The translations under genes were made by a program, and so were the position numbers. 64,000 nucleotides of DNA from Halichondria panicea (taxonomy: Eukaryota; Porifera; Demospongiae; Suberitida; Halichondriidae), in the NCBI RefSeq assembly GCF_963675165.1, contig NC_087383.1, forward strand, positions 3,688,979-3,752,978, given 5' to 3'. The notes under the pieces are model-generated. The model saw only the letters and a program-made list of their open reading frames with translations, was not told where the DNA came from and did not search any database. Every line of letters begins with the position of its first letter. Within the stretch, counting starts at the first letter, position 1. Positions 4,868 to 34,586 of the stretch are shown here, piece after piece.

Positions 4868-5121
4868 GAGTTCACTCTGTTTGACCTTGTAGTCTAGTAA
4901 GATATTTCTTCCAGTTCTTTCTTAGTTTAGTGTTGAAACAGAGCAGCGTAATTGGATAGGATGCTCCGTGTAGGCTGTCAACACAAGCAAATGTCATCCT
5001 GCGCAAAATAAGCCCAGTTTCCTAGGTAGTCTTCCACTCCTGCTAGCTGTAGCAACTCATAAATTGCAGTGCTCAGAAGAAAACCTATGCCTACATTGCA
5101 TGAGATCAAAAATAACATCAC
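4868..5121 (-). pseudogene. 7TM receptor remnant, C-terminal part
   Basis: Read on the minus strand, this stretch gives the TM6-TM7 end of the receptor family, including AGVEDYLGNWAYF, the region before TM7, and a broken TM7/tail block ending in SNRV. It has frameshifts and a stop and lacks everything upstream of TM6. The closest intact relative by eye is the gene at 42275. It lies head-to-head with the oxidase at 5719, so it keeps the divergent pairing in mirror image. Confidence 0.8.
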
Positions 5122-5718
5122 TATAATACCACAAGACTAAGAAAAAGGAGAGGCTGCGAAAGAGGCTAGTGTGGATCGTCTCTGTACAGCCTGCAGAACA
5201 TGGAGCTTAATGGTGCCTTAATTGGGTCTATTTAATTATTGGATTCTCAGTTATGAGCGCACGTGATAACACCTGACGGTGGATGGCGCGCGTCCAACCT
5301 CCTCATGGGACTGGCCAGGTAATCATGTCTTCATTGTGTACTGTGGTTCAGGGAAAAGGGTGTGGTTTCCTGTGTGGTCACAGTAGCTACAGCATACCAG
5401 CAAGACAGTGCGTGACGTTACAGGCTATAACTACATTCCAAACATTTTGGGACGAGTCATTGACAGTCACCTGGCCAGTTCCTTTCCCAAATAAGGGGCG
5501 TGGTTTCCAGTCTAGTTTATCACCACATGTGTAAACACAAGTAATGTGTTTTGTAACAATATATGCATGTGTTTTGTGTACATTGGTTTGGCATATTAGG
5601 AACTGTTGATCAAGACTTTCTGTCATGTGCATGCCAAGCATGTGTTAATTGACCTCTAGATTAACTTGATTAGCACAGATCTCACAATCTTGACAGTATA
5701 GAGAGATCTATAACAACA
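5122..5718. other. Upstream region of oxidase 1
   Basis: Holds the presumed promoter of the oxidase at 5719. An 83-codon open frame here looks accidental. CTGGCCAG with pyrimidine-rich flanks occurs twice (about 5311 and 5471) in an inverted-repeat-like setting, suggesting an old inserted element. Confidence 0.35.
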
Positions 5719-7248: not shown

Positions 7249-7555
7249 ATTGATGCTTACTATACATTTGTTATGCATGCATGCATATAAATTTATTGCG
7301 TGTTGATGTACAAGGAATTGAATGCTATAAGCTATGCGCTTAGATGTAGGTTACAGGAATATCTCATGATGGGAAGTAGTTATTCCCAATTAGATATTTA
7401 CGGGAAATAAAACATTCTAAGGAATGATTATGTTTATACAGGATACAATGTTAGTATTCTAGCCATTAATACAAGTAATGATCTTATCATCTACCACTTT
7501 TAATTTGGTATAGGTGAAAATAAAAAGCACAGGTATGATCAATTTGAAACTGTTT
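7249..7555. other. Spacer between convergent oxidase copies 1 and 2
   Basis: AT-rich 3' flanks of two genes that end toward each other. No coding signal or clear hairpin was seen; polyadenylation signals of both genes are expected here (AATAAA at about 7408). Confidence 0.4.
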
Positions 7556-9070
7556 CTATATATTGTAATGTTCTAGCAACCGTTTAGCTTCCCTCACTCC
7601 AGATTCGAATGCGCCATTAGTTGTTCCATACATTGATACATGCGTAGCCTCCCCTGCAAAGAGCAGCTGCATCGAGCTCGAACCATCAACCGGCTCAGAG
7701 AGGGCGACACGGTCCATTTCATCACTACCTTTAGCACAATAAGAATACACACCCAGCACATGAGGGTCACTAGTCCAGGCGCCAATGATTACTCTTGTGG
7801 GGCAAATTCGTTTTTTCAAGAACTTCTCGAGTACCAAGCTGATTCCTTCGATTCTCTCCTGATTTGTGGCAGCCTCAATTCCTCTAGCCTTGTCAGCAGC
7901 AAACCATGTGCCGTATACGTTTGAGTCTCTTTGTCTAATCATTACATCGAGTGACTGAGCCCATGGATATTTGGAAAGATACTGCAACTCTTCTTCCAGC
8001 CAAAATAGTTCAATAACTCGATGTTCTTTGTCAATCAGAGGAGCCGAGAACTCGTAAAAAACACTGCATCCTTCGCCCATACCTAGTTTTGATATGGCTT
8101 CCAGCTTGTCTGCCGGGAGAGAGGGACTAAATGTTTCATTGATACAAGCCCATAATTTCAGCACTCCTAATGACGTGGTTACTATCACATGGTGAGCATC
8201 ATAAACCTGGCCATTTTCACAGTGAACTGTAATGGGAGGGATATCACTCTCACTATTAGCAGCTTTGTCAGTCCAGTTGATCGCCTTGACTACGTTGGAG
8301 CACTGAAGAGTATCGGGTGGTAGCTCTTTAGAAATGGCCGATACTATCTCGGAATAGTTTGCACGTTGTAGGTACTCACAATCAGGGTCTAAGTAATCTC
8401 CATAAGCGCTCGCATCAAGGTTGGCAAGGTCTGTTCCATTCATGAATCTCTCGTAGATAATCATTCGATTGTAGATATGCCTAGGAGTGCAACCAGTTGG
8501 CAGCTGCATTGGAGCAGAGGCTTCAACAGCTTCAAAATATCGAGCTTCTAAATACTCTTCAGGCGGGAGATACGTCCTGTTCGTTTTAGGCCACTCTTTT
8601 CGAATCACATAATTCCAATCTTTCTTGTCATAGCATTGGCACAATTCCTCCACAAGTTCCGCAAACATTGTTTCATAGTGTTTGGCTGATGAGAACTGAA
8701 TTTCTTCGCCATTGCTCAAAAAATGGATGTTTGGAATTCCAGTATCAGTAAATATTTCATTATGGGATTCAGCAGTCTTGTTGGATGCCAATTGTCGGCT
8801 CTCCAAGAAATCAGTAAAATTAGTAGCTTTGTTAAAGTAATACAAAAAACACGCTCCAATTTCAGCGAAGTATTTTCCGTCTTGTATCGGCACCGACTTG
8901 GCTCTTCCGCCAGGGTATGGCTTGGCTTCCAACAACTTGATGTCTAAGTTGATATTCTTGAGAGTAGATGAGAGTGTGTGAGCTGCTGCTAGACCTGCCA
9001 GACCACCTCCTACTATCACCACCTTCTTGGAGGGCCCAGCTCTGGGTAGGGAATGAAGCTGTCCTGACAT
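7556..9070 (-). CDS. FAD amine oxidase, polyamine-oxidase-like (copy 2)
   Basis: Intronless, 504 residues from the ATG at 9070. The frame stays open upstream to an ATG at 9145 (529 residues), but I prefer the MSGQ start because copies 1 and 5 begin there and copy 5 has no upstream extension. All FAD motifs of copy 1 are present (GGGLAG, PGGR, FAGEATH) and the flavin lysine is again missing from the LGMGEGCSVFYEF block. Its promoter side faces the receptor gene at 9850. This copy is almost identical to the frameshifted copy at 25613, within the large direct repeat. Confidence 0.9.
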   Translation of the reverse strand: MSGQLHSLPRAGPSKKVVIVGGGLAGLAAAHTLSSTLKNINLDIKLLEAKPYPGGRAKSVPIQDGKYFAEIGACFLYYFNKATNFTDFLESRQLASNKTAESHNEIFTDTGIPNIHFLSNGEEIQFSSAKHYETMFAELVEELCQCYDKKDWNYVIRKEWPKTNRTYLPPEEYLEARYFEAVEASAPMQLPTGCTPRHIYNRMIIYERFMNGTDLANLDASAYGDYLDPDCEYLQRANYSEIVSAISKELPPDTLQCSNVVKAINWTDKAANSESDIPPITVHCENGQVYDAHHVIVTTSLGVLKLWACINETFSPSLPADKLEAISKLGMGEGCSVFYEFSAPLIDKEHRVIELFWLEEELQYLSKYPWAQSLDVMIRQRDSNVYGTWFAADKARGIEAATNQERIEGISLVLEKFLKKRICPTRVIIGAWTSDPHVLGVYSYCAKGSDEMDRVALSEPVDGSSSMQLLFAGEATHVSMYGTTNGAFESGVREAKRLLEHYNI

Positions 9071-9849
9071 TACACTGGCTATAAGGCTATAAGGCTGTAA
9101 GTAATAAAAATGGCTTGGTTGGAGCTTAAGAACTGTGTCACTCACTAAACCACTGTACTGTATATGGCTTTTAGGTCAGGAATGACAGAGGAAGCCAATG
9201 TAATTCAAGCCATGCAGGTACTCATGCAGCCATGCATTTCATGCTTCCAAGAAAATAGACACATGCATGCAGTAAGTGATCTTAATTAGCTGAGAATTTA
9301 TATGTATCAAAGGAAATTTCTTTGAAAAGAAAATGCATGACACAATACATGCATTTCCTGTGTTAGAGCTAGAGTCTATACTAAAATTAATTAAGAGTGC
9401 TGACATCTACATTTTTTTGAGCTGGATTTTCTTTGACTCATTCATGCAACTGTGAACCACGTTCACAGTGTCAGTGGTTCATGTCGGTTAACATGTCGGT
9501 TCATGTCGGTTAACACACTTGAAAAGAATAATATTCATAGCAGTGTTACATAATGCAGCAGAACAATTCCCAGATAAGTTTGCAACCCGACGTCCCTGGC
9601 GGGACGGTCGAGCCACGCCCAACTAGTATCTATAGTGAATACATACAATTAATATAATGTCAATCGTAAATTTAAAAGTACAATTCTCGATTATTTAATT
9701 GCTAAAGTAATTTCAGCCAAAACAGTCCTGCTAGATGAATAGGAGTGAACGACAACTATACAGTGCCGAGAATAGCAAGAATGCAAAAGTCACACTTATC
9801 TCTTTCATAATTATAGATTGAAATTTATTATACACAAGAACTCAAGAAA
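9071..9849. promoter_or_regulatory. Divergent promoter between oxidase 2 and receptor
   Basis: The 779 bp between the two ATGs holds both 5' ends. Next to the oxidase start are three near-repeats of GGCTATAA. Further along are a perfect inverted repeat (9451-9467), repeats of TTCATGTCGGTTAA (9479-9513), and a receptor-proximal block with GTGAACGACAACTAT (about 9745) and AATAGCAAGAATGCAA (about 9771). The same layout recurs at 15256-15915 and 27126-27921. Function is inferred from position and conservation among copies. Confidence 0.55.
9451..9467. promoter_or_regulatory. Perfect palindrome with 3-nt spacer in divergent promoter
   Basis: TGTGAACCACGTTCACA is a perfect 7-bp inverted repeat around CAC. 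Its layout resembles nuclear-receptor inverted-repeat-3 sites, but no factor can be named. Kept unchanged at 15533-15549 and 27533-27549. Confidence 0.4.
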
Positions 9850-10848
9850 ATGGATTCTCTATACTATAGTGACTACGACAATGATAGTACCACTCAAGAG
9901 TTTCCATATTGGCAACCACTCGTAGCTATTGAGATTATCCTTAACTTTGCAGTAATACTCCCCTCAACACTATTTTGGAATCTCACTGTCTTCACAGCAT
10001 TAATCAGGAGCAAACTCAGCAACAAGCCTCTAACAGTGCTCTACAGTTCTTTGCTATTGATGCTTTGTATGGACAAAATTGTAGTAGCTATCACTACGAC
10101 AGCAGCTTCACCAAACGTGCTCAGATATTGCATATGCAACATTCTAGCTGCTGCATTTATCATTGCTTGTGATACATTCTTCATTACTTTTTCTGTACTG
10201 CTAATCACTTGTCAGAGCTTGATACAGCTACAAATTATAAGAGGAAAGAAACAATGGAACAACTATAGATTGATAACCCCTTGCATTGGAGTAAGTTTTC
10301 TGACTGGAATGTTCTGGTTTACACTGCTACTTAACGTTTTGCCAGTATCATCAAATCCTTGCCAGTCGTCATGCCCACAGAATAATACATTAACGACTTC
10401 AAGTGGAACCGAAAACATATTCGCAGGAGCCTTTTACGTGTCTACACTCTTTCCTGCTTCTGTCACAGTCATTGTAACATCAGTTTGGTCAGTGCAGTTA
10501 TTCAGGAAGATGTCTATCCCGCAAAAAATCCAAAATTACAGTAACTTGAACAAGAAGCTTCTGCTATTGCCTATTTTGATGGTCTTTCTGATATCATGCA
10601 ATGGACTAATTGGTTATCTGGTGGGTGTAGTACTTTCAGAAGTGTTAAGACTCGCCGGAGTGGAAGATTACCTTGGAAACTGGGACTATTTCATACGCAG
10701 GATGACATTTAATTTAGTCAGCTTTGTACACGGAGTGTCCTATCCAATCACACTTCTCTATTTCAACACCAACCTAAGAATGAAGTGGAAGAAACAGTAC
10801 ACCAGGAGGTCAAACAGAGTGGACTTGGAAACTACTACAGTGACTTGA
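9850..10848 (+). CDS. Rhodopsin-like 7TM receptor, subfamily A
   Basis: Intronless, 332 residues. Hydrophobic segments at about 24-50, 60-84, 95-123, 141-164, 191-217, 236-262 and 281-306 give seven membrane spans with a short outside N-terminus and a basic inside tail. Cys94/96 before TM3 and Cys171/175 in the second outer loop can form the usual disulfide. TM7 ends in SYPITLLYF, a variant of NPxxY. Odd: no DRY at the TM3 end, and SCNG stands where CWxP is expected in TM6. The N-terminus YYSDYDND has acidic-flanked tyrosines (possible sulfation) and an NDS glycosylation sequon. I infer a class-A-like chemoreceptor or peptide receptor; no ligand can be named. It is divergent from oxidase copy 2, and the gene at 27922 differs by about two residues. 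Confidence 0.85.
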   Translation: MDSLYYSDYDNDSTTQEFPYWQPLVAIEIILNFAVILPSTLFWNLTVFTALIRSKLSNKPLTVLYSSLLLMLCMDKIVVAITTTAASPNVLRYCICNILAAAFIIACDTFFITFSVLLITCQSLIQLQIIRGKKQWNNYRLITPCIGVSFLTGMFWFTLLLNVLPVSSNPCQSSCPQNNTLTTSSGTENIFAGAFYVSTLFPASVTVIVTSVWSVQLFRKMSIPQKIQNYSNLNKKLLLLPILMVFLISCNGLIGYLVGVVLSEVLRLAGVEDYLGNWDYFIRRMTFNLVSFVHGVSYPITLLYFNTNLRMKWKKQYTRRSNRVDLETTTVT

Positions 10849-11014
10849 CAATCAATTTTATATAGTAGATCTAACTGATGTAATGCATGCGCATGGCTTT
10901 GTGAAAAACTTTGCACTATTAACTCTGAAAAAGCCAAAAGTATAATCACAGGAGCCGGAATTTTGGAGTCAGGCTATATATAGACTAGCTCATTATCATC
11001 AGTTAGTTTGGTTA
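10849..11014. other. Receptor 3' flank
   Basis: Short non-coding flank that recurs after the receptor at 27922; no separate feature seen. Confidence 0.4.
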
Positions 11015-11556
11015 TAGATTGAATAGGGAGAGGGATTGGAAACGGAAGTGGCGTCACGTGACATTTTACTGCAGCATGGCGCCAGAGAGCCTTTGATGTC
11101 AATCCGTGTTTACAGTTGCTCAACACGCAGGAAACAATGTTTCATGAATTATGATCACTACAAGATATTCAGAGCCCCCCACTAAAATGTCATTCTCATG
11201 CCCCCTAATGGTGAACATCAGTTGGAAAAGAAAAAAATACATTTTTGACTTTTGTGAAAAGAGCTAGAGGTACAAAACACGCTATGAGATCTTTATGTAC
11301 CTATAGATGCTTCTAATATAGCTAAAACTGTGCAACTCATCGGTGTACTGTGTCCCATATGCATGTGCATGGTCTCAAGTGACAGTTGGAAGTGCAAGTT
11401 TTAGTACAAATGTAGTATAATCTAGCACACAAGTCAAGGTATATATGTACTAGATTTTACCAACGTTATAGATACACAGCCTCAATTAAACCCCGGCGTA
11501 ACACGGATATAATTCGAGATAACTTCCGTTTCCAATCCCTCTCCCTATTCAATCTA
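11015..11556. mobile_element. 542-bp MITE with 35-bp terminal inverted repeats
   Basis: The left end TAGATTGAATAGGGAGAGGG and the following bases through GGAAACGGAAGT are exactly complementary to the right end, about 35 bp. The TA at both edges suggests a TA target duplication. No coding capacity. The same element, same length, is at the equivalent place in the second repeat (29091-29632); an older relic of the left end is near 33767, and one of the right end near 36190. Confidence 0.8.
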
Positions 11557-11796
11557 TGGTGGTTTGGTACAACCATTAGACAATTTAATCAATCCCGGCA
11601 ACAAAAAGGCAAAGAACCAATAGACAGAACAAAAAACTTGTCACTTTCGCTGAATATATATACAGTAACAATAACTATATAATTATACAGTGTAGAAAAC
11701 AGCGAGAATGTATATTGAGTTACGTGAATGCACATCAACGGACGTGATTCATTCATGCATATCAAGGCAATTAGGAATTCAACTAACTCAAGAGAA

Positions 11797-11877
11797 ATGG
11801 ATTCTCTACACTAGCATGACTACATTGTGCAGTGCACTCCTAGGCCATATTGGCAACCATCGTTACTGATAGCTAAT
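11797..11877 (+). pseudogene. 7TM receptor fragment, first codons
   Basis: Matches the start of the receptor genes (ATGGATTCTCTA..., then CCATATTGGCAACC) but is broken by deletions and stops after about 27 codons. Confidence 0.65.
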
Positions 11878-11910
11878 TGCATGTACATAATTAGCTAATG
11901 CATGTATAGT

Positions 11911-12487
11911 TACCATATTGGTTATTTTCGAGGTTTTCGAGAGGATTGACCTTGAACCTCGAACATTTAGTGCCTCGAAAACATGATTGGTTTACTTCCG
12001 GTTGAAAGACCTCTCAACAGTAGGATTCAGTTGTGGTCCTTTGAATCACTATCTCGTTTACGAATCTTTATTTATGAAAATTATTTTTAGTGCCTCGATC
12101 GAAAATAACCTGCTACCGTATAGCGGGTAATTTTCGTGGGGTAAAATCCTTCATTATTTTCGTGGGCAAGCTGACCTCCACAACATTTTAACATAGGCGT
12201 GGCTTACCGGAACGTAGGAATACAGTGCAGGCAACGAGACTTAACGAAATTTTTACTCATGAAAACCACTGTTTTTCGAGTTCAACAAATTTTTTACCCC
12301 ACGAAAATTACCCGTTATACGGTATAACAGCTGGTTAATTTTTGAGATTTTTGAGAATTGACTGGGCCAGAAAAACAAATTTAGTGCCTCGAAAATTGGT
12401 TTTTATCTTGAACCTCTCTACTATATAGATTGCTAACTCACGGAAACAGTGAAAATTACGCCCCTTGAAAATTTCGCGCTATACAGT
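11911..12487. mobile_element. Three abutting MITEs with TACCGTATAGCG-type ends
   Basis: Element one, about 11911-12120, has arms GGTTATTTTCGAGG / complement. Element two, 12114-12324, shares TACCGTA with it and has arms GCGGGTAATTTTCGTGGGG / complement ending TATACGGTA. Element three runs to about 12487, ending TTTCGCGCTATACAG. The copy at 29987-30683 has an extra stretch of about 120 bp inside element three, so this copy has an internal deletion there (near 12435). Confidence 0.65.
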
Positions 12488-12661
12488 GTACTAAAAAACA
12501 AAAATTCCATACAATTTCGACTTATAACAGCATAATTATAATTATGTACATGTAAAATAGTGGCAAACGACAGCACTGTTTGATAATCGCAACAATTTTA
12601 TATTTAGTGAATCATGCACATAAACTGCATGAATACAGTATAATTAATATCATGCAAGGAA

Positions 12662-12975
12662 ATGGATTATCTAGACTCCTATATATATGACTACGACAAT
12701 GGCAATGCCATACTAGCACTCAAGAGTTTCCTTACTGGCAACCACTCATATAGCTTTTGCATGAGGTTATCATCAACTATGCGGTAATGCTCCCATCAAT
12801 GTAACTCTATTCTGGAATCTCACTGTCTTCACAGCCTTAATCAAGAGCAAGCTCGGCACCAAGCCTCTAATGGCAACTCTACAGTTCCTTACTATTGGTA
12901 CTATGTTTGGACAAGACTGTTGCAGCTATTTTACAGCAACCTTTTCACCAGACTCACATAATGTGCTAAGATCAA
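12662..12975 (+). pseudogene. 7TM receptor remnant, TM1-TM2 part
   Basis: Follows the receptor family from the ATG through TM2 (FWNLTVFTALIKSKL region recognisable), with several small indels and stops. Ends near the start of TM3. Matched by 30862-31150. Confidence 0.75.
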
Positions 12976-13031
12976 CACAAGTTGTAAACCAATTACAGAG
13001 ACTGTACTGTTGCATGCATGTGCTACAATTA

Positions 13032-13162
13032 ACCGAATAGGGGTAAACGACACCTACTTGATTGTGATAACAAGAATGCAATAGATCACAGTTCAGAACA
13101 TAATTATACGTATAGATTACGTATACATAATATAATTATATCGATCATACAGGCTCAGAAAA
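13032..13162 (+). promoter_or_regulatory. Relic of conserved receptor upstream block
   Basis: Contains AATAGGGGTAAACGACACC, then AACAAGAATGCAATAGATCA, then GGCTCAGAAAA just before the broken ATG. This is the same order as upstream of the intact subfamily-B genes, so the remnant was copied with its promoter. Confidence 0.5.
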
Positions 13163-13395
13163 ATGGAGTCTCTAGACTATATATAGTGACTACGACAATG
13201 GCATTGCCACTCAAGAGTAATTTCCTTATTGGCAACCATGCACTCATAGCTATATATTGACATTGTCCTCAACTTTGCAGTAATATACTTCCATCAACAC
13301 TATTCTGGAATCTCACCATCTTCACAACTTTTATCATGAGCAAACTCAGCAACAAACCTAGCTCTAACAGTGCTCTACAGTTCCTTGCTATTGGA
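13163..13395 (+). pseudogene. 7TM receptor remnant fused to oxidase 3' flank
   Basis: Covers the N-terminus to early TM2, with stops and insertions, then stops abruptly at TTGCTATTGGAAG and continues as GTTGTAAATGTGG, the sequence found downstream of several oxidase copies. This is a duplication breakpoint. Confidence 0.75.
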
Positions 13396-13739
13396 AGTTG
13401 TAAATGTGGTTTGTCAAGTGCATGCAAGCACACACAACACAAAACATAAAACGTATCACAATAATTATTTCAAAGATGTACAAGATTGAATGGAAAGTTT
13501 GGAGTCAGAAAATAGGGCTAGCTTGCTTAGCATACTCTCAAAAGCACATTATACAAAAGTACAATAGAAAAAAGAAAGTTTTATTTTTAATTAATGGCTA
13601 TTAGCACGTACTTAATTTAGCGTTAATTACACAAATTGCTAAAAAATAGTACCCGTTTATAATAGCATAGGAAAACGTTTGCGTGAAACACTCCGCGTTA
13701 TAGGTGTTCTAAGCACAAGTACAATCAATTAAACTGTTT
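13396..13739. other. Oxidase 3' flank shared by several copies
   Basis: Begins GTTGTAAATGTGGTTTGTCA and recurs before the oxidase loci at 25613 (from 25246) and 31905 (from 31556), and in part at 35713. Non-coding; a 66-codon open frame in it looks accidental. Confidence 0.6.
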
Positions 13740-15255
13740 CTATATACTGTAATATTCTAGCAATCGTTTTGCTTCCCTCACTCCAGATTCGAATGCACCA
13801 TTAGTTGTTCCATACATTGATACATGCGTAGCCTCCCCTGCAAAGAGCAGCTGCATCGAGGTTGAACCATCAACCGGCTCAGAGAGGGCGACGCGATCCT
13901 TTTCATCACTACCTTTAGCACAATAAGAATACACACCCAGCACATAAGGGTCACTAGTCCAGGCGCCAATGATTACACTTGTGGGGCAAATTTGTTTTTT
14001 CAAGAATTTCTCGAGTACCAAGCTGATTCCTTCGATTCTCTCCTGATTTGTGGCAGCCTCAATTCCTCTAGCCTTGTCAGCAGCAAACCATGTGAGGTAA
14101 ACGTTTGAGTCTCTTTGTCTAATCATTACATCGAGTGACTGTGCCCACGGATATTTGGAAAGATACTGCAACTCTTCTTCCAGCCAAAATAGTTCAATAA
14201 CTCGATGTTCTTTGTCAATCAGAGGAGCCGAGAACTCGTAAAAAACACTGCATCCTTCGCCCATACCTAGTTTTGATATGGCTTCCAGTTTGTCTGCCGG
14301 GAGAGAGGGACTAAAAGTTTCATTGATACTAGCCCATAATTTCAGCACTCCTAATGATGTGGTTACTATCACATGGTGAGCATCATAAACCTGGCCATTT
14401 TCACAGTGAACTGTAATGGGAGGGATATCACTCTCACTATTAGCAGCTTTGTCAGTCCAGTTGATCGCCTTGACTACGTTGGAGCACTGAAGAGTATCGG
14501 GTGGTAGCTCTTTAGAAATGGCCGACACTATCTCGGAATAGTTTGCATGTTGTAGGTACTCACAATCAGGGTCTAAGTAATCTCCATAAGCGCTCGCATC
14601 AAGGTTGGCAAGGTACGCTCCGTTCATGAATCTCTCATAGATAATCATTCGATTATAGATATGCCTAGGAGTGCAACCAGTTGGCAGCTGCATTGGAGCA
14701 GAGGCTTCAACAGCTTCAAAATATCGAGCTTCTAAATACTCTTCAGGCTGGAGATACGTCTTGTTCGTTTTAGGCCACTCTTTTCGAATCACATAATTCC
14801 AATCTTTCCTGTCAAAGCATTGGCATAATTCCTCCACAAGTTCCGCAAACATCGTTTCATAGTGTTTGGCTGATGAGAACTGAATTTCTTCGCCATTGCT
14901 CAAAAAATGGATGTTTGGAATTCCAGTATCAGTGAATATTTCATTATGGGATTCAGCAGTCTTGTTGGATGCCAATTGTCGACTCTCCAAGAAAATCAGT
15001 AAAATTAGTAGCTTTGTTAAAGTAATACAAAAAACACGCTCCAAGTTCAGCGAAGTATTTTCCGTCTTGTATCGGCACCGACTTGGCTCTTCCGCCAGGG
15101 TATGGCTTGGCTTCCAACAACTTGATGTCTAAGTTGACATTCTTGAGAGTAGATGAGAGTGTGTGAGCTGCTGCTAGACCTGCCAGACCACCTCCTACTA
15201 TCACCACCTTCTTGGAGGGCCCAGCTCTGGGTAGGGAATGAAGCTGTCCTGACAT
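13740..15255 (-). pseudogene. FAD amine oxidase copy 3, one-base frameshift
   Basis: Follows copy 2 along its whole length, but one extra A in the run at 14992-14995 (five-base neighbourhood GAAAATC versus GAAATC in copies 2 and 5) breaks the frame about 87 codons in, just after FTDFL. Upstream: intact Rossmann motif and PGGR. Downstream: 400+ codons remain open, with all C-terminal FAD motifs and the same missing flavin lysine. Either a very young pseudogene or a base-call error in an otherwise good gene; the long clean downstream frame favours a recent event. Divergent from the receptor at 15916. Confidence 0.8.
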
Positions 15256-15915
15256 TACACTGGCTATAAGGCTATAAGGCTGTAAGTAATAAAAATGGCT
15301 TGGTTGGAGCTTAAGAACTGTGTCACTCACTAAACCACTGTACTGTATATGGCTTTTAGGTCAGGAATGACAGAGGAAGTCAATGTAATTCAAGCCATGC
15401 AGGTACTCATGCATGCAAAGAAAATGCATGACACAATACATGCATTTCCTGTGTTAGAGCTAGAGTCTATACTAAAAGTGCTGACAATCTACATTTTTTT
15501 GAGCTGGATTTTCTTTGACTCATTCATGCGACTGTGAACCACGTTCACAGTGTCAGTGGTTCATGTCGGTTAACACCCACTTGAAAAGAATAATATTCAT
15601 AGCAGTGTTACATAATGCAGCAGAACAATTCCCAGATAAGTTTGCAACCCGACCTCCCGTCAGGAACGGTCGAGCCACGCCCAATTACTATCTATAGTGA
15701 ATAAAATAATGTCAATCGTAAATTTAAAAGTACAATTCCCGATTATTTAATAGCTAAAGTAATTTCAGCCAAAACAGTCCTGATACTTAAAGCTAGCTAG
15801 ATGAATAGGAGTGAACGACAACTATACAGTGCCGAGAATAGCAAGAATGCAAAAGTCACACTTATCTCTTTTATAATTATAGATTGAAATTTATTATACA
15901 CAAGAACTCAAGAAA
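15256..15915. promoter_or_regulatory. Divergent promoter between oxidase 3 and receptor
   Basis: A 660-bp version of the 9071-9849 region with internal deletions. It keeps the GGCTATAA repeats, the inverted repeat at 15533-15549, a single TTCATGTCGGTTAA unit, and the receptor-proximal GAACGACAACTAT and AGCAAGAATGCAA motifs. Confidence 0.55.
15533..15549. promoter_or_regulatory. Perfect palindrome with 3-nt spacer (second copy)
   Basis: Same 17 bp as at 9451-9467, unchanged although flanking bases differ. Confidence 0.4.
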
Positions 15916-16917
15916 ATGGATTCTCTATACTATAGTGACTACGACAATGATAGTACCACTCAAGAGTTTCCATATTGGCAACCACTCGTAGCTATTGAGA
16001 TTATCCTTAACTTTGCAGTAATACTCCCCTCAACACTATTTTGGAATCTCACTGTCTTCACAGCATTAATCAGGAGCAAACTCAGCAACAAGCCTCTAAC
16101 AGTGCTCTACAGTTCTTTGCTATTGATGCTTTGTATGGATAAAATTGTAGTGGCTATCACTACAACAACAGCTTCACCAAACGTGCTCAGATATTGCATA
16201 TGCAACATTCTAGCTGCTGCATTTCTCATCGCTTGCGATACATTCTTCGTTACCTTTTCTGTACTGCTAATCACTTGTCAGAGCTTGATACAGCTACAAA
16301 TTATAAGAGGAAAGAAACAATGGAACAGCTATAAAAAGATAACCCCTTGCATTGGAGTAAGCTTTCTAACTGGAATGTTCTGGTTTACACTGCTACTTAA
16401 CATTTTGCCAGCATCATCAAATCCTTGCCAGTCGTCATGCATACAAAATAATACACTAAAAACTTCCAGTGGAATCGAAAACATATTCGCAGGAGCTTAT
16501 TATGTGTCTACACTCTTTCCAGCTTCTGCCACAGTCATTGTAACGTCAGTTTGGTCAGTACAGATATTCAGGAACATGTCTATCCCGCAAAAAACCCAAC
16601 ATTACACCAACTTGAACAAAAAACTTCTGCTATTGCCTATTTTGATGGTCTTTTTGATATCATGCAATGGACTAATTGGTTATCTGATAGGCATAGCACT
16701 TTCAAAAGTGTTAAGACTAGCAGGAGTGGAAGATTACCTTGGAAACTGGGCCTATTTTGCACGCAGGATGACATTTAATTTAGTCAGCTGTCTACAAGGA
16801 GTGTCGTATCCAATCACACTTCTCTATTTCAACACCAAACTAAGAATGAACTGGAAGAAACAATATACCAGGAGGTCAAACAGAGTGGACTTGGAAACTG
16901 CCATGCACATGAAGTGA
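15916..16917 (+). CDS. Rhodopsin-like 7TM receptor, subfamily A
   Basis: Intronless, 333 residues, same seven spans as the gene at 9850. It differs by scattered substitutions, more in the second half: outer loop 2 reads SSCIQNNTLKTSSGIENIF, TM7 SCLQGVSYPITLLYF, and the tail ends ETAMHMK instead of ETTTVT. The N-terminal YYSDYDND and the first 80 residues are nearly unchanged. Substitutions are spread through TM6-TM7 and loop 2, which could alter ligand preference (inference). Divergent from frameshifted oxidase copy 3. Confidence 0.85.
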   Translation: MDSLYYSDYDNDSTTQEFPYWQPLVAIEIILNFAVILPSTLFWNLTVFTALIRSKLSNKPLTVLYSSLLLMLCMDKIVVAITTTTASPNVLRYCICNILAAAFLIACDTFFVTFSVLLITCQSLIQLQIIRGKKQWNSYKKITPCIGVSFLTGMFWFTLLLNILPASSNPCQSSCIQNNTLKTSSGIENIFAGAYYVSTLFPASATVIVTSVWSVQIFRNMSIPQKTQHYTNLNKKLLLLPILMVFLISCNGLIGYLIGIALSKVLRLAGVEDYLGNWAYFARRMTFNLVSCLQGVSYPITLLYFNTKLRMNWKKQYTRRSNRVDLETAMHMK

Positions 16918-17018
16918 CAAATTAAACAGACTATCAAGCATTATACATGTATATAGTATAACTATATATGACCAATGATAAAATCTAATGGAAAATTCAT
17001 TAATTATGCTTTAGACTA

Positions 17019-17539: not shown

Positions 17540-17600
<61 letters not shown>

Positions 17601-20435: not shown

Positions 20436-20569
20436 TAAATATTAATTATGCAAGAACAACGCACAATATCGTATTTTATACCATACTTACGTCACCACTA
20501 ATTGATCTCATTGGTCAACAGCTTATTAGGAAGTTTACCCATGCATGCACTGATGATCGGTTATAATTA

Positions 20570-25612: not shown

Positions 25613-27125
25613 CTATATACTGTAATGTTCTAGTAATCGTTTAGCTTCCCTCAGTCCAGATTCGAATGCACCATTAGTTGTTCCATACATTGATACATGT
25701 GTGGCCTCCCCTGCAAAGAGCAGCTGCATTGAGGTTGAACCATCAACCGGCTCAGAGAGGGCGACACGATCCTTTTCATCACTACCTTTAGCACAATAAG
25801 AATACACACCCAGCACATGAGGGTCACTAGTCCAGGCGCCAATGATTACTCTTGTGGGGCAAATTCGTTTTTTCAAGAATTTCTCGAGTACCAAGCTGAT
25901 TCCTTCGATTCTCTCCTGATTTGTGGCAGCCTCAATTCCTCTAGCCTTGTCAGCAGCAAACCATGTGAGGTATACGTTTGAGTCTCTTTGTCTAATCATT
26001 ACATCGAGTGACTGTGCCCACGGATATTTGGAAAGATACTGCAACTCTTCTTCCAGCCAAAATAGTTCAATAACTCGATGTTTTTTGTCAATCAGAGGAG
26101 CCGAGAACTCGTAAAAAACACTGCATCCTTCGCCCATACCTAGTTTTGATATGGCTTCCAGTTTGTCTGCCGGGAGAGAGGGACTAAACGTTTCATTGAT
26201 ACTAGCCCATAATTTCAGCACTCCTAATGACGTGGTTACTATCACATGGTGAGCATCATAAACCTGGCCATTTTCACAGTGAACTGTAATGGGAGGGATA
26301 TCACTCTCACTATTAGCAGCTTTGTCAGTCCAGTTGATCGCCTTGACTACGTTGGAGCACTGAAGAGTATCGGGTGGTAGCTCTTTAGAAATGGCCGATA
26401 CTATCTCGGAATAGTTTGCACGTTGTAGGTACTCACAATCAGGGTCTAAGTAATCTCCATAAGCGCTCGCATCAAGGTTGGCAGGGTCTGTTCCATTCAT
26501 GAATCTCTCGTAGATAATCATTCGATTGTAGATATGCCTAGGAGTGCAACCAGTTGGCAGCTGCATTGGAGCAGAGGCTTCAACAGCTTCAAAATATCGA
26601 GCTTCTAAATACTCTTCAGGCGGGAGATACGTCCTGTTCGTTTTAGGCCACTCTTTTCGAATCACATAATTCCAATCTTTCTTGTCATAGCATTGGCACA
26701 ATTCCTCCACAAGTTCCGCAAACATTGTTTCATAGTGTTTGGCTGATGAGAACTGAATTTCTTCGCCATTGCTCAAAAAATGGATGTTTGGAATTCCAGT
26801 ATCAGTAAATATTTCATTATGGGATTCAGCAGTCTTGTTGGATGCCAATTGTCGGCTCTCCAAGAAATCAGTAAAATTAGTAGCTTTGTTAAAGTAATAC
26901 AAAAAACACGCTCCAATTTCAGTGAAGTATTTTCCGTCTTGTATCGGCACCGACTTGGCTCTTCCGCCAGGGTATGGCTTGGCTTCCAACAACTTGATGT
27001 CTAAGTTGATATTCTTGAGAGTAGATGAGTGTGTGAGCTGCTGCTAGACCTGCCAGACCACCTCCTACTATCACCACCTTCTTGGAGGGCCCAGCTCTGG
27101 GTAGGGAATGAAGCTGTCCTGACAT
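25613..27125 (-). pseudogene. FAD amine oxidase copy 4, two-base frameshift
   Basis: Nearly identical to copy 2, but two bases (AG of GATGAGAGTGTG) are missing at about 27028-27031, so the frame breaks after GGGLAGLAAAHTL, within the FAD Rossmann unit. The remaining 459 codons from an internal Met at 26992 are open and keep PGGR, FAGEATH and the lysine-less LGMGEGCSVFYEF block. A protein from 26992 would lack the Rossmann motif and could not bind FAD normally. A young pseudogene or a sequencing error are both possible. Divergent from the receptor at 27922. Confidence 0.8.
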
Positions 27126-27921
27126 TACACTGGCTATAAGGCTATAAGGCTGTAAGTAATAAAAATGGCTTGGTTGGAGCTTAAGAACTGTGTCACTCAC
27201 TAAACCACTGTACTGTATATGGCTTTTAGGTCAGGAATGACAGAGGAAGCCAATGTAATTCAAGCCATGCAGGTACTCATGCAGCCATACATTTCATGCT
27301 TCCAAGAAAATAGACACATGCATGCAGTAAGTGATCTTAATTAGCTGAGAATTTATATGTATCAAAGGAAATTTCTTTGAAAAGAAAATGCATGACACAA
27401 TACATGCATTTCCTGTGTTAGAGCTAGAGTCTATACTAAAATTAATTAAGAGTGCTGACATCTACATTTTTTTGAGCTGGATTTTCTTTGACTCATTCAT
27501 GCAACTGGAACAGCTTCAAAAATGTGAACCACGTTCACAGTGTCAGTGGTTCATGTCGGTTAACATGTCGGTTCATGTCGGTTAACACACTTGAAAAGAA
27601 TAATATTCATAGCAGTGTTACATAATGCAGCAGAACAATTCCCAGATAAGTTTGCAACCCGACCTCCCGCCAGGGACGGTCGAGCCACGCCCAACTAGTA
27701 TCTATAGTGAATACATACAATTAATATAATGTCAATCGTAAATTTAAAAGTACAATTCTCGATTATTTAATTGCTAAAGTAATTTCAGCCAAAACAGTCC
27801 TGCTAGATGAATAGGAGTGAACGACAACTATACAGTGCCGAGAATAGCAAGAATGCAAAAGTCACACTTATCTCTTTCATAATTATAGATTGAAATTTAT
27901 TATACACAAGAACTCAAGAAA
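27126..27921. promoter_or_regulatory. Divergent promoter between oxidase 4 and receptor
   Basis: The 796-bp counterpart of 9071-9849, with one extra 15-bp insertion (GAACAGCTTCAAAAA) placed just before the inverted repeat at 27533-27549. Both TTCATGTCGGTTAA units and the receptor-proximal motifs are kept. Confidence 0.55.
27533..27549. promoter_or_regulatory. Perfect palindrome with 3-nt spacer (third copy)
   Basis: Same 17 bp as at 9451-9467. It survives although an insertion replaced its left flank. Confidence 0.4.
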
Positions 27922-28920
27922 ATGGATTCTCAATACTATAGTGACTACGACAATGATAGTACCACTCAAGAGTTTCCATATTGGCAACCACTCGTAGCTA
28001 TTGAGATTATCCTTAACTTTGCAGTAATACTCCCCTCAACACTATTTTGGAATCTCACTGTCTTCACAGCATTAATCAGGAGCAAACTCAGCAACAAGCC
28101 TCTAACAGTGCTCTACAGTTCTTTGCTATTGATGCTTTGTATGGACAAAATTGTAGTAGCTATCACTACGACAGCAGCTTCACCAAACGTGCTCAGATAT
28201 TGCATATGCAACATTCTAGCTGCTGCATTTATCATTGCTTGTGATACATTCTTCATTACTTTTTCTGTACTGCTAATCACTTGTCAGAGCTTGATACAGC
28301 TACAAATTATAAGAGGAAAGAAACAATGGAACAACTATAGATTGATAACCCCTTGCATTGGAGTAAGTTTTCTGACTGGAATGTTCTGGTTTACACTGCT
28401 ACTTAACGTTTTGCCAGTATCATCAAATCCTTGCCAGTCGTCATGCCCACAGAATAATACATTAACGACTTCAAGTGGAACCGAAAACATATTCGCAGGA
28501 GCCTTTTACGTGTCTACACTCTTTCCTGCTTCTGTCACAGTCATTGTAACATCAGTTTGGTCAGTGCAGTTATTCAGGAAGATGTCTATCCCGCAAAAAA
28601 TCCAAAATTACAGTAACTTGAACAAGAAGCTTCTGCTATTGCCTATTTTGATGGTCTTTCTGATATCATGCAATGGACTAATTGGTTATCTGGTGGGTGT
28701 AGCACTTTCAGAAGTGTTAAGACTCGCCGGAGTGGAAGATTACCTTGGAAACTGGGACTATTTCATACGCAGGATGACATTTAATTTAGTCAGCTTTGTA
28801 CACGGAGTGTCCTATCCAATCACACTTCTCTATTTCAACACCAACCTAAGAATGAAGTGGAAGAAACAGTACACCAGGAGGTCAAACAGAGTGGACTTGG
28901 AAACTACTACAGTGACTTGA
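27922..28920 (+). CDS. Rhodopsin-like 7TM receptor, subfamily A (twin of 9850)
   Basis: Intronless, 332 residues; differs from the gene at 9850 at position 4 (Gln for Leu, giving MDSQYYSDYDND) and at 261 (Ala for Val), with otherwise identical spans and loops. This near-identity means a very recent duplication, gene conversion, or an unmerged second haplotype. The paired oxidase (copy 4) is frameshifted while this receptor is intact. Confidence 0.85.
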   Translation: MDSQYYSDYDNDSTTQEFPYWQPLVAIEIILNFAVILPSTLFWNLTVFTALIRSKLSNKPLTVLYSSLLLMLCMDKIVVAITTTAASPNVLRYCICNILAAAFIIACDTFFITFSVLLITCQSLIQLQIIRGKKQWNNYRLITPCIGVSFLTGMFWFTLLLNVLPVSSNPCQSSCPQNNTLTTSSGTENIFAGAFYVSTLFPASVTVIVTSVWSVQLFRKMSIPQKIQNYSNLNKKLLLLPILMVFLISCNGLIGYLVGVALSEVLRLAGVEDYLGNWDYFIRRMTFNLVSFVHGVSYPITLLYFNTNLRMKWKKQYTRRSNRVDLETTTVT

Positions 28921-29090
28921 CAATTAATTTTATATAGTAGATCTAACTGATGTAATGCATGCGCATGGCTTTGTGAAAAACTTTGCACTATTAACTCTGA
29001 AAAAGCCAAAAGTATAATCACAGGAGCCGGAATTTTGGAGTCAGGCTATAATTATATAGACTAGCTCATTATCATCAGTTAGTTTGGTCA

Positions 29091-29632
29091 TAGATTGAAT
29101 AGGGAGAGGGATTGGAAACGGAAGTGGCGTCACGTGACATTTTACTGCAGCATGGCGCCAGAGAGCCTTTGATGTCAATCCGTGTTTACAGTTGCTCAAC
29201 ACGCAGGAAACAATGTTTCATGAATTATGATCACTACAAGATATTCAGAGCCCCCCACTAAAATGTCATTCTCATGCCCCCTAATGGTGAACATCAGTTG
29301 GAAAAGAAAAAAAGACATTTTTGACTTTTGTGAAAAGAGCTAGAGGTACAAAACACGCTATGAGATCTTTATGTACCTATAGATGCTTCTAATATAGCTA
29401 AAACTGTGCAACTCATCGGTGTACTGTGTCCCATATGCATGTGCATGGTCTCAAGTGACAGTTGGAAGTGCAAGTTTTAGTACAAATGTAGTATAATCTA
29501 GCACACAAGTCAAGGTATATATGTACTAGATTTTACCAACGTTATAGATACACAGCCTCAATTAAACCCCGGCGTAACACGGATATAATTCGAGATAACT
29601 TCCGTTTCCAATCCCTCTCCCTATTCAATCTA
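29091..29632. mobile_element. 542-bp MITE, second copy
   Basis: Same element, ends and length as 11015-11556, at the equivalent place, so the insertion predates the segmental duplication. Confidence 0.8.
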
Positions 29633-29872
29633 TGGTGGTTTGGTACAACCATTAGACAATTTAATCAATCCCGGCAACAAAAAGGCAAAGAACCAATAGA
29701 CAGAACAAAAAACTTGTCACTTTCGCTGAATATATATACAGTAACAATAACTATATAATTATACAGTGTAGAAAACAGCGAGAATGTATATTGAGTTACG
29801 TGAATGCACATCAACGGACGTGATTCATTCATGCATATCAAGGCAATTAGGAATTCAACTAACTCAAGAGAA

Positions 29873-29953
29873 ATGGATTCTCTACACTAGCATGACTACA
29901 TTGTGCAGTGCACTCCCAGGCCATATTGGCAACCATCGTTACTGATAGCTAAT
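29873..29953 (+). pseudogene. 7TM receptor fragment, first codons (copy)
   Basis: Counterpart of 11797-11877 with one substitution seen. Confidence 0.65.
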
Positions 29954-29986
29954 TGCATGTACATAATTAGCTAATGCATGTATAGT

Positions 29987-30683
29987 TACCATATTGGTTA
30001 TTTTCGAGGTTTTCGAGAGGATTGACCTCGAACCTCGAACATTTAGTGCCTCGAAAACATGATTGGTTTACTTCCGGTTGAAAGACCTCTCAGTAGGGTT
30101 CAGTTGTGGTCCTTTGAATCACTATCTCCGAAAATCAAGTTTACGAATCTTTATTTGAAAATTAATTTTAGTGCCTCGATCGAAAATAACCTGCTACCGT
30201 AGCGCGGGTAATTTTCGTGGAGTAAAATCCTTCATTATTTTCGTGGGCAAGCTGACCTCCACAAAATTTTAACATATGCGTGGCTTACCGGAACGTAGGA
30301 ATGCAGTGCAGGCAACGAAATTTTACTCATGAAAACCACCGTTTTTCGAGTTCAACAAATTTTTTACCCCATGAAAATTACCCGTTATACGGTATAACAG
30401 CTGGTTAATTTTCGAGATTTTTGAGAATTGACTGGGCCAGAAAAACAAATTTAGTGCCTCGAAAATTGGTTTTTATCTTGAACCTCTCTACTATATAGGG
30501 GTGTGGTCATTTGAACCCTTATCCTCGAAAATAAAATCTATCTTTAAAATGCTTAGTTTGGGTAATCCTCGAAAATTTAGCACACAAAATTATATTATTA
30601 AAAAACAGTTTTCGTGAAGGATTGCTAACTCACAGAAACAGTGAAAATTAAGCCCCTTGAAAATTTCGCGCTATACGGTGTGC
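29987..30683. mobile_element. Triple MITE cluster, fuller copy
   Basis: Counterpart of 11911-12487. The third element here keeps about 120 bp more (including GGGGTGTGGTCATTTGAACC) and ends TTTCGCGCTATACGGTG. Confidence 0.65.
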
Positions 30684-30861
30684 TAAAAAACAAAAATTCC
30701 ATACAATTTCGACTTATAACAGCATAATTATAAATATGTACATGTAAAATAGTGGCAAACGACAGCAACTGTTTGATAATCGCAACAATTTTATATATTA
30801 TAGTGAATCATGCACATGCATAAACTGCATGAATACAGTATAATTAACGTCATGCAAGAAA

Positions 30862-31150
30862 ATGGATTATCTAGACTCCTATATATATATATGACTACGA
30901 CACAAGAGTTTCCTTACTGGCAACCACTCATATAGCTTTTGCATGAGGTTATCATCAACTATGCGGTAATACTCCCATCAACGTAACTCTATTCTGGAAT
31001 CTCACTGTCTTCACAGCCTTAATCAAGAGCAAGCTCGGCACCAAGCCTCTAATGGCAACTCTACAGTTCCTTACTATTGGTACTATGTTTGGACAAGACT
31101 GTTGCAGCTATTTTACAGCAACCTTTTCACCAGACTCACAAAATGTGCTA
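30862..31150 (+). pseudogene. 7TM receptor remnant, TM1-TM2 part (copy)
   Basis: Counterpart of 12662-12975 with an additional short deletion in the N-terminal codons. Confidence 0.75.
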
Positions 31151-31341
31151 AGATCAACACAAGTTGTAAACCAATTACAGAGACTGTACTGTTGCATGCA
31201 TGTGCTACAATTATAACCGAATAGGGGTAAACGACACCTACTTGATTGTGATAACAAGAGTGCAATAGATCACAGTTCAGAACATAATTATACGTATACG
31301 TATACATAATCCAACTATATAGATCATACAGGCTCAGAAAA

Positions 31342-31555
31342 ATGGAGTCTCTATAGACTATATAATAGTGACTACGACAATGGTATTGCCACTCGAGAGT
31401 AATTTCCTTATTGGCAACCATGCACTCGTAGCTATATAATTATTGACATTGTCTTCAACTTTGCAGTAATACTTCCATCAACACTATTCTGGAATCTCAC
31501 CGTCTTCACAACTTTTATCATGAGCAAACTCAGCAACAAACCTAGCTCTAACAGC
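31342..31555 (+). pseudogene. 7TM receptor remnant at duplication junction (copy)
   Basis: Counterpart of 13163-13395, but the junction to the oxidase flank is different: it ends CTCTAACAG and resumes CTGTAAATGTGG, about 28 bp of receptor sequence shorter. Confidence 0.75.
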
Positions 31556-31904
31556 TGTAAATGTGGTTTGTCAAGTGCATGCAAGCACACACAACACAAA
31601 ACGTAAAACGTATCACAATAATTATTTCAAAGATGTACAAGATTGAATGGAAAGTTTGGAGTCAGAAAATAGGGCTAGCTTGCTTAGCATACTCTCAAAA
31701 GTACATTATACAAAAGTACAAGAGAAAAAAGAAAGTTTTATTTTTAATTAATGGATTCATAGCTATTAGCGCGTACTTAATTTAGCGTTAATTACACCAA
31801 ATTTAATTGCTAAAAATTAGTACTCGTTTATGAAAATGTTTGCGTGAAACACTCCGCGTTATAGGTGTTCTAAGCACATGCAAGTACAATCAATTAAACT
31901 GTTT

Positions 31905-33419
31905 CTATATACTGTAATGTTCTAGTAATCGTTTTGCTTCCCTCAGTCCAGATTCGAATGCACCATTAGTTGTTCCATACATTGATACATGTGTGGCCTC
32001 CCCTGCAAAGAGCAGCTGCATCGAGGTTGAACCATCAACCGGCTTAGAGAGGGCGACACGGTCCATTTCACCACTACCTTTAGCACAATAAGAATACACA
32101 CCCAGCACATGAGGGTCACTAGTCCAGGCGCCAATGATTACTCTTGTGGGGCAAATTCGTTTTTTCAAGAATTTCTCGAGTACCAAGCTGATTCCTTCGA
32201 TTCTCTCCTGATTTGTGGCAGCCTCAATTCCTCTAGCCTTGTCAGCAGCAAACCATGTGAGGTATACGTTTGAGTCTTTTTGTCTAATCATTATATCGAG
32301 TGATTGTGCCCACGGATATTTGGAAAGATACTGCAACTCTTCTTCCAGCCAAAATAGTTCAATAACTCGATGTTCTTTGTCAATCAAAGGAGCCGAGAAC
32401 TCGAAAAAAACACTGCATCCTTCGCCCATACCTAGTTTTGATATGGCTTCCAGTTTGTCTGCCGGGAGAGAGGGACTAAAAGTTTCATTGATACTAGCCC
32501 ATAATTTCAGCACTCCTAATGATGTGGTTACTATCACATGGTGAGCATCATAAACCTGGCCATTTTCACAGTGAACTGTAATGGGAGGGATATCACTCTC
32601 ACTATTAGCAGCTTTGTCAGTCCAGTTGATCGCCTTGACTACATTGGAGCACTGAAGAGTATCGGGTGGTAGCTCTTTAGAAATGGCTGACACTATCTCG
32701 GAATAGTTTGCACGTTGTAGGTACTCACAATCAGGGTCTAAGTAATCTCCATAAGCGCTCGCATCAAGGTTGGCAAGGTACGCTCCATTCATGAATCTCT
32801 CATAGATAATCATTCGATTGTAGATATGCCTAGGAGTGCAACCAGTTGGCAGCTGCATTGCAGCAGAGGCTTCAACAACTTCAAAGTATCGAGCCTCTAA
32901 ATACTCTTTAGGCGGGAGATATGTCTTGTTCGTTTTAGGCCACTCTTTTCGAATCACATAATTCCAATCTTTCTTGTCATAGCATTCGCACAATTCATCT
33001 ACAACTTCGGCAAACATCTTTTCATAGTGTTTGGCTGATGAGAACTGAATTTCTTCACCATTGCTCAAAAAATGGATGTTTGGAATTCCAGTATCAGTGA
33101 ATATTTCATTATGGGATTCAGCACTCTTGTTGGATGCCAATTGTCGACTCTCCAAGAAATCAGTAAAATTAGTAGCTTTGTTAAAGTAATACAAAAAACA
33201 CGCTCCAAGTTCACCGAAGTATCTTCCGTCTTGTATCGGCACTGACTTGGCTCTTCCGCCAGGGTATGGCTTGGCTTCCAACAACTTGATGTCTAAGTTG
33301 ACGTTCTTGAGAGTAGATGAGAGTGTGTGAGCTGCTGCTAGACCTGCCAGACCACCTCCTACTATCACCACCTTCTTGGAGGGCCCAACACTGGGTAGGG
33401 AATAAAGCTGTCCTGACAT
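31905..33419 (-). CDS. FAD amine oxidase, polyamine-oxidase-like (copy 5)
   Basis: Intronless, 504 residues, starting MSGQLYSLPSVGPSKK. All FAD motifs are intact (GGGLAG, PGGR, FAGEATH...TTNGAF). It is the most diverged of the minus-strand copies: FGELGACF, SAESHNE, MFAEVVDELCECYD, EVVEASAAMQLP and GCSVFFEF are private or rare variants. The flavin lysine is absent here too. The promoter differs from copies 2-4: the GGCTATAA repeats and the inverted repeat are missing, and only a receptor pseudogene (34587) lies upstream. It may therefore be regulated differently (inference). Confidence 0.9.
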   Translation of the reverse strand: MSGQLYSLPSVGPSKKVVIVGGGLAGLAAAHTLSSTLKNVNLDIKLLEAKPYPGGRAKSVPIQDGRYFGELGACFLYYFNKATNFTDFLESRQLASNKSAESHNEIFTDTGIPNIHFLSNGEEIQFSSAKHYEKMFAEVVDELCECYDKKDWNYVIRKEWPKTNKTYLPPKEYLEARYFEVVEASAAMQLPTGCTPRHIYNRMIIYERFMNGAYLANLDASAYGDYLDPDCEYLQRANYSEIVSAISKELPPDTLQCSNVVKAINWTDKAANSESDIPPITVHCENGQVYDAHHVIVTTSLGVLKLWASINETFSPSLPADKLEAISKLGMGEGCSVFFEFSAPLIDKEHRVIELFWLEEELQYLSKYPWAQSLDIMIRQKDSNVYLTWFAADKARGIEAATNQERIEGISLVLEKFLKKRICPTRVIIGAWTSDPHVLGVYSYCAKGSGEMDRVALSKPVDGSTSMQLLFAGEATHVSMYGTTNGAFESGLREAKRLLEHYSI

Positions 33420-34586
33420 TGCACTAGATATAAAGCTGTGACTAATCTAGATATAGTCTACTAGTAATAAAATGCTTGCCATGGTTGGAGATTAAGATCT
33501 AGTGCATGCAAGTGGGCTATTATAGGAACTGTGCCTGTATTTGTATTAAGATAGCATAATTATCTATGGCTTTTAGGTCAGGAATGACAGAGGAAGCCAA
33601 TGTAATTCAAGCCATGCAAGTACTTATGCAGCATCTAGCCTAGCCTCGATCCCAGGCCGAGTTTTCGCTTTTATAACGGTTAGTTGTTTGCCTAACCGTT
33701 ATAAAAGCGAAAACTCGGCCTAGGGTTGCAGTCATGCTCCAAGAAAATGGAATGTGCCTAATCGGGCATAGATTGAAAAGGGAAGGGATTTAAAACGACC
33801 AGGCCTCTCTGTGCGCATGTAAACGGTTGAAACACTCCACGTTATGATTTAGCGATTGTGAATATTTTCGTGGTTGACCGTTCTGAGGCTGTTTCTAGCT
33901 CTCCTATCCACTAGCGATCACTCAGGGGCTGGGAGGTATATTATCTAAATTTACACCACTGACAAGCAATGTGAAAGTTGCTAGAATTGGCTGAGAGAAA
34001 AGCACCAAAGTGTGGGCCGGGAGAGCCATAATTATGTCATTGACATCATTAATTAAGTCAATATTAAGCCAGTTACTATACATACGGATTTCGTCTGAAG
34101 TGGTGGAATCTGTCTGACAATGTAAAATGGGCCATGCTTGATAATTGCATAATCTAAACTGTTTATAATGATGCTGTGACGGATTGTTAATTGTATGTAT
34201 TGATCTCTCCCGTTTTCTTATTTCCCCATGCTTTTTGGCATTTGGTGCTCTCCCGGGTAACAATGCAAATGTTTTTTCTCTACTTCATTGGAAATCCGCT
34301 TTGCATCTTTAGTGTACATATAATAATAGTGATGTCTCAATTCTCAATTAACAATTACTATTTTGAGTATAATTTATAAGCATGCATGTGCATGTTATTA
34401 GTCTTGTAATGAACACACTCACGCTCACATAATGTGCAAAGATCAACACAAGCTGTAAACCAAGAGACTGTTGCATGTATGTGCTACAGCCAAATAGGGG
34501 TAAACGAACCTACTTGATTGTGAATAACAAGAATGCAATAGATCACAATTCAGATACGTATACGTATCGATCGTAGGCTCAGAAAA
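33420..34586. other. Spacer between oxidase 5 and broken receptor
   Basis: Holds the oxidase promoter, a perfect hairpin (33654-33721), a relic of the 542-bp MITE end at about 33767, the minus-strand GAGAGCACCAAATGCC-type stretch also found at 21490 and 45400, and a relic of the receptor upstream block (GGGGTAAACGAACCTACTTG at about 34496). Confidence 0.5.
33654..33721. repeat. Perfect 30-bp hairpin
   Basis: The left arm 33654-33683 (AGGCCGAGTTTTCGCTTTTA...) is exactly complementary to the right arm 33692-33721 with an 8-base loop. The left flank TAGCCTCGATCCC also belongs to the element, as its complement follows the half copy at 44664-44722. Confidence 0.85.

Follow-up and report, generated by a model that had tools for sequence, protein, structure and literature searches.

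Clustered receptor genes and divergently arranged neighbours have both been described in sponges. In Amphimedon queenslandica, the sponge-specific Rhodopsin-like GPCRs AqRho-A to E are reported to form clusters of 2 to 8 adjacent receptors with 51-74% protein identity, an arrangement ascribed in that study to gene duplication (PMC4302439), and 45% of Amphimedon genes are reported to lie head to head, with 11,379 having starts within 1 kb (PMC4773876). Among animal spermine oxidases, Trp80, His82, Lys367 and others are described as kept in >90% of sequences (PMC3517346). His82 is mentioned in PMC9504029 as well. Among the papers listed in our literature search on divergent receptor/amine-oxidase pairs and on sponge polyamine oxidases, none was relevant.

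We analysed a window of 64,000 nucleotides (C7:3688979-3752978) of the Halichondria panicea genome, which comprises 131 Mb in 39 contigs. As in the AqRho clusters (PMC4302439), receptor genes in this window are clustered and adjacent; unlike AqRho, they have no Pfam 7tm match, and their link to class A is one weak profile match to GPR183. Like the Amphimedon head-to-head pairs (PMC4773876), oxidase and receptor genes here point away from each other, their starts no more than about 1 kb apart, but at this locus one pair was repeated through segmental duplication. A sequence-only reading of the same DNA had described five such pairs, three with intact receptors and two eroded, and had proposed that they are a compact signalling module; its coordinates are correct, and the pattern was overstated, because the pairing was copied at three loci only (9, 15 and 27 kb). 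The arrangement is very probably a product of segmental duplication and conversion within the receptor array, with the oxidase as a passenger.

Receptor array and oxidase copies

Five spermine-oxidase-like gene copies sit within a tandem array of 20 receptor stretches, merged by hand from blastn matches, 18 of which are on the plus strand. An open frame of at least 330 amino acids (aa) was found in six of the 20 stretches; all six are single frames, 330-337 aa long from the aligned ATG, and half of them (R21914, R42275 and R45782) have no oxidase upstream. The features discussed below are, in window coordinates:

4893..5124, minus strand: receptor remnant (5121), residues 242-319 only, clade of unpaired R42275
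5719..7248, plus strand: O5719, oxidase copy, open, 509 aa, tail to tail with O9070
7556..9070, minus strand: O9070, oxidase copy, open, 504 aa
9071..9849, no strand: pair 1 spacer, 779 bases
9850..10848, plus strand: R9850, paired receptor, 332 aa
13740..15255, minus strand: O15255, oxidase copy, frame broken by a 1-base insertion
15256..15915, no strand: pair 2 spacer, 660 bases
15916..16917, plus strand: R15916, paired receptor, 333 aa
21914..22927, plus strand: R21914, intact receptor with no oxidase upstream
25613..27125, minus strand: O27125, oxidase copy, frame broken by a 2-base deletion
27126..27921, no strand: pair 3 spacer, 796 bases
27922..28920, plus strand: R27922, paired receptor, 332 aa, 2 nucleotide differences from R9850
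31905..33419, minus strand: O33419, oxidase copy, open, 504 aa
33420..34586, no strand: composite spacer at 33 kb
34587..35215, plus strand: receptor pseudogene, clade of unpaired R21914/R45782
42275..43276, plus strand: R42275, intact receptor with no oxidase upstream; frame open from 42137, the ATG at 42275 aligning with the others
45782..46774, plus strand: R45782, intact receptor with no oxidase upstream

Array members may plausibly be class A receptors. In PDB profile searches, a profile of six sequences matched the class A receptor GPR183 weakly (E 0.0015) and profiles of 21 and 12 sequences did not, and five receptors inspected for hydropathy gave six peaks in three cases and seven in two. 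None of 21 receptor members matched a Pfam 7tm family at E 0.1, the only matches being unrelated ones, of which the best was AFF4_CHD (0.00086).

Recent segmental duplications (96-97%) are also present at 17644-19771, matching 37138-39276, and at 20523-21659, matching 40447-39306 in inverted orientation. Other features of the window are a 51-base tandem repeat of about 10 copies (55487-56076), a long GT repeat (58130-58395) and a GC skew of 0.28 across 58001-60000.

Three duplicated pairs

At the 9, 15 and 27 kb loci, oxidase starts on the minus strand (9070, 15255 and 27125) face receptor starts on the plus strand (9850, 15916 and 27922), with 779, 660 and 796 bases from start codon to start codon, that is, divergent starts within about 1 kb. 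The head-to-head layout read earlier therefore stands, as do the three intact receptors (open frames of 332, 333 and 332 aa), though two of the oxidases are frame-broken. The same reading took the pairing to be the unit of amplification. The pair was indeed duplicated, the three loci sharing oxidase, spacer and receptor by descent, and R9850, R15916 and R27922 form one clade in the receptor tree; the copied blocks, however, do not match the limits of the pair. One block (7525-12428, matching 25584-30498 at 98%) extends beyond the receptor, and another (12428-15413, matching 30620-33630 at 92%) includes the oxidase but not its paired receptor.

Between the 9 and 27 kb loci, substitutions were found at 2 of 999 receptor sites, 6 of 779 spacer sites (17 gap columns) and 23 of 1513 oxidase sites, and the partners have diverged unequally (receptor dS 0, oxidase C-terminal dS 0.056). 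Between the 9 and 15 kb loci, the corresponding counts were 73/999, 16/645 (149 gap columns) and 41/1515. The small number of substitutions separating the 9 and 15 kb spacers, relative to a dS of 0.15 for R9850 and R15916, could reflect promoter constraint; the unpaired R21914 and R45782 (dS 0.13) have 75 changed sites among 426 upstream, plus 45 gap columns. Only 1 of 300 sites differs between the 9 and 15 kb loci at 9766-10065, a stretch with 216 coding bases within it, followed by 61 of the next 750. Because this low divergence runs 216 bases into receptor coding DNA, exchange between copies fits better than a promoter boundary, and we give spacer constraint little weight as evidence for a shared promoter. 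Elsewhere the same spacer is patchy, with 9 of 130 sites differing at 9480-9629, so the conversion that probably shaped it did not leave one clean tract. Receptor-proximal DNA seems to predate the pairing, since unpaired R42275 shares with the paired receptors a 63-base stretch, found 53-113 bases upstream of the latter (78%, E 6.5e-6), and the 33 kb spacer likewise matches DNA upstream of unpaired receptors on its receptor side.

We suggest that a spermine-oxidase-like gene was acquired by a tandem array whose membrane receptor genes are single-frame and mostly share a strand, and that unequal crossing-over and gene conversion may then have multiplied segments of the array with the oxidase carried along. 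One oxidase-receptor junction was copied twice, giving rise to the loci at 9, 15 and 27 kb. In this way, segmental duplication within a receptor array lying on one strand can yield a tidy, repeated gene pairing, and the hitchhiking of neighbours in duplication, which the sequence-only reading had named as its null explanation, fits better than a signalling module does. In such a module, the oxidase would make or destroy the ligand of the receptor, one bidirectional promoter would serve both genes and selection would keep the pair as a unit. The homologous spacer of 660-796 bases in three pairs and the few substitutions in it are what a module might leave behind; frame breaks in two of the three oxidases of the pairs, and partners that were not inherited together at two further loci, argue the other way.

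Junctions at 5 and 33 kb

O33419 with the pseudogene at 34587, and O5719 with the remnant at 5121, had been taken for eroded copies of the same pair, which the receptor clades and the mostly non-homologous spacers contradict. In the receptor tree, pseudogene 34587 clusters with unpaired R21914 and R45782 and the 5121 remnant with unpaired R42275, both with support of 100, and the latter two share 90% nucleotide identity over 232 sites. Forcing either remnant or both into the paired clade was rejected by AU tests (p 0.0003 and 0.0002 for the single constraints, 8e-6 for both). Since the 5121 remnant consists of residues 242-319 only, no receptor start faces O5719. The five oxidases are 92-98.5% identical, while the receptor remnants at 5 and 33 kb split from the paired clade; the partners at these loci were not co-inherited. 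Clade incongruence between partners is a way to tell a by-product of duplication from a selected module.

The spacers at 5 and 33 kb show no homology to the spacer of the three pairs, except for about 200 bases beside O33419. On that oxidase side of the 33 kb spacer (to 33632), about 200-210 bases align with the three pairs, including a 68-base core at 97%, and on the receptor side, from 34055, about 530 bases match DNA upstream of unpaired R45782 and R21914. The 5 kb spacer, between 5121 and 5717, has no match elsewhere in the window. Homology of O5719 to the other oxidases in blastn stops at the start and stop codons despite a dS of only about 0.2, so either its flanks were replaced or the coding part alone was copied or converted.

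It is unlikely that all five loci descend from one that already carried the pair, with the 5 and 33 kb receptors overwritten afterwards by sequence from unpaired ones. Such a history would account for the receptor stretch upstream of all five oxidases, and the uneven divergence across the array does suggest exchange between copies; but the homology at 33 kb to unpaired receptors spans the gene plus about 530 bases upstream, no spacer homology is left at 5 kb, and both remnants fall in other clades with support of 100. The 5 and 33 kb junctions are instead separate juxtapositions, in which an oxidase copy came to lie beside receptor remnants from other clades.

A palindromic MITE-like element (33641-33724, its start within the composite spacer also placed at about 33651; 86% self-complementary over 74 bases) lies between O33419 and the receptor pseudogene, after the oxidase side of the 33 kb spacer, and another copy is present at 44674-44725.

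Chance of divergent neighbours

We modelled placement by dropping an oxidase at random into the array, using the 20 hand-merged receptor stretches. In 32% of random placements a divergent receptor stretch lies no more than 1200 bases from the oxidase, and in 23% no more than 800 bases; split by strand, the 1200-base figure rises to 59% when the oxidase is on the minus strand and, by difference, falls to about 5% on the plus strand, where O5719 lies. Each of the five oxidases has a divergent receptor stretch upstream, and on the opposite side of three of them another receptor stretch lies no more than 1200 bases away. As three of the five junctions stem from one event, the expectation is that of three independent junctions at 32%, or about 0.03, making the five-of-five placement mildly unusual, not striking. 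Divergent neighbours would also be ordinary in a compact sponge genome, given the share of head-to-head genes reported for Amphimedon (PMC4773876).

Several observations speak against treating the oxidase as a passenger: purifying selection on the oxidases, a pairing that has persisted since R9850 and R15916 split (dS 0.15), the receptor stretches upstream of all five copies (with the roughly 5% expectation for plus-strand O5719), the low number of substitutions separating the 9 and 15 kb spacers, and frame breaks that are possibly mis-assembled.

Identity and constraint of the oxidase

Both oxidase copies that were scanned matched PF01593, with an E value of 9e-45 across residues 24-499. Spermine oxidase (E 4.5e-46) and N1-acetylpolyamine oxidase (1.6e-41) are the closest relatives of solved structure. 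The dinucleotide-binding motif GGGLAG at residues 21-26 is identical in the three open copies (5719, 9070 and 33419). O15255 has its 1-base insertion in a T run and O27125 its 2-base deletion in a CA/CT repeat, and each is open from an ATG for the last 370 codons only; because both breaks lie in simple repeats, assembly error is possible.

Seven of the nine residues named in PMC3517346 were mapped by counting along the alignment, with PDB chain numbers lower by 20 (Trp80/His82), 56 (Lys367, Trp427, Tyr482) and 64 (Ser527/Thr528); Gln200 and Glu224 were left out, as that stretch aligns poorly. The oxidase resembles SMOX and PAOX in its full-length PF01593 match, in having these two as best solved relatives and in keeping the equivalents of Trp427, Tyr482 and Thr528 (three of the seven mapped, in O9070). 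It differs from them at the other four, where the residues named in PMC3517346 are replaced in O9070: Trp80 by Phe75, His82 by Tyr77, Lys367 by Ser336 and Ser527 by Gly. The SMOX motif WIH aligns to FLY in O9070, which is also found in the other two open copies, and TDKIF aligns to GCSVF, a site present in the DNA of all five copies. The predicted active site is thus altered relative to animal spermine oxidases. Among nine other oxidases of this genome, eight have Trp at the Trp80 site but only one (L043) has His at the His82 site, and at the Lys367 site the eight that reach the column have Lys in three (L016, L042, L045), His in four (L017, L018, L019, L021) and Ile in one (L043). Since other oxidases of the genome vary at the same sites, the replaced residues need not mean lost activity.

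Intact oxidases have dN/dS values of 0.23-0.29, and Fisher tests on two pairs gave p 3e-7 and 2e-13; this purifying selection indicates that the gene is not inert. Selection on the intact copies would be expected of a signalling module. Against such a role, no signal-peptide-like start was seen by eye in the oxidase, and the Trp80, His82, Lys367 and Ser527 equivalents are replaced, though with the variation among other genome oxidases just described. It is very unlikely that a spermine-oxidase-like flavoprotein with an altered site was recruited next to a single receptor clade and stayed paired with it because the same cells need both, the protein making, removing or binding the ligand by chemistry other than ordinary polyamine oxidation. 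An oxidase conserved by selection yet lacking several reported polyamine oxidase residues is the part of this locus most deserving of biochemical attention.

Horizontal transfer of the oxidase was considered and set aside: two peptide patterns matched 151 stretches in bacterial and archaeal genomes, a collection holding no animals and in which only close relatives are detectable, and tblastn identified no relative among them.

Related genes elsewhere in the genome

A genome search with the oxidase subfamily returned at least 13 matches, of which seven are fragments of the five copies in the window and the other six are distant relatives (25-29% identity), and the wider PF01593 family had 40 matches across the whole genome. 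Among the matches listed, the subfamily was not found in this genome outside the window array. Receptors of the same subfamily do occur outside the window, eight of them near full length, 64-68% identical and without stops, on C15, C10 and C9. The regions around these eight and around nine more distant receptors (C11, C12, C3) contain no ORF of at least 120 aa matching the oxidase. For the C11:1658441 receptor and the C3:5101556-5102512 and C3:4256588 pieces, the genome-wide match list, used in place of the surrounding regions, places no oxidase match nearby.

The pairing was found in one array only of this genome, and three of six intact window receptors, as well as those elsewhere in the regions covered, have no oxidase upstream. 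Together with two further "pairs" that are different juxtapositions, frame breaks in two of three paired oxidases and replacement of four of seven mapped active-site residues, this makes the compact signalling module quite unlikely, and a functional link between the partners is probably absent. The reading of the oxidase as a passenger in a duplicating receptor array is consistent with the subfamily's restriction to the window.

An amine oxidase of another kind, some 21 kb away from a receptor on C10 (C10:4616213), was rejected as a second association; it is unmatched by the window oxidase, and the two genes share a strand instead of facing apart.

Judged by eye from ORF starts, receptors seem to be co-duplicated with unrelated neighbour ORFs on two contigs, which favours the passenger reading. 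On C10, a receptor and a 332-aa neighbour ORF recur at L028:6837-9374 and L030:5735-8420, with the C10b copy in pieces, and on C11 a receptor and a neighbour ORF of 315/318 aa recur at L034:4931-7411 and L035:5404-7886; a Pfam scan of the neighbour ORFs at L028:8376-9374 and L034:6464-7411 gave no match. Adjoining the C15 receptor array is an ORF of the TPMT methyltransferase family (L022:2683-3393, E 1.5e-30), accompanied by a shorter ORF with a similar start at 1676-2128.
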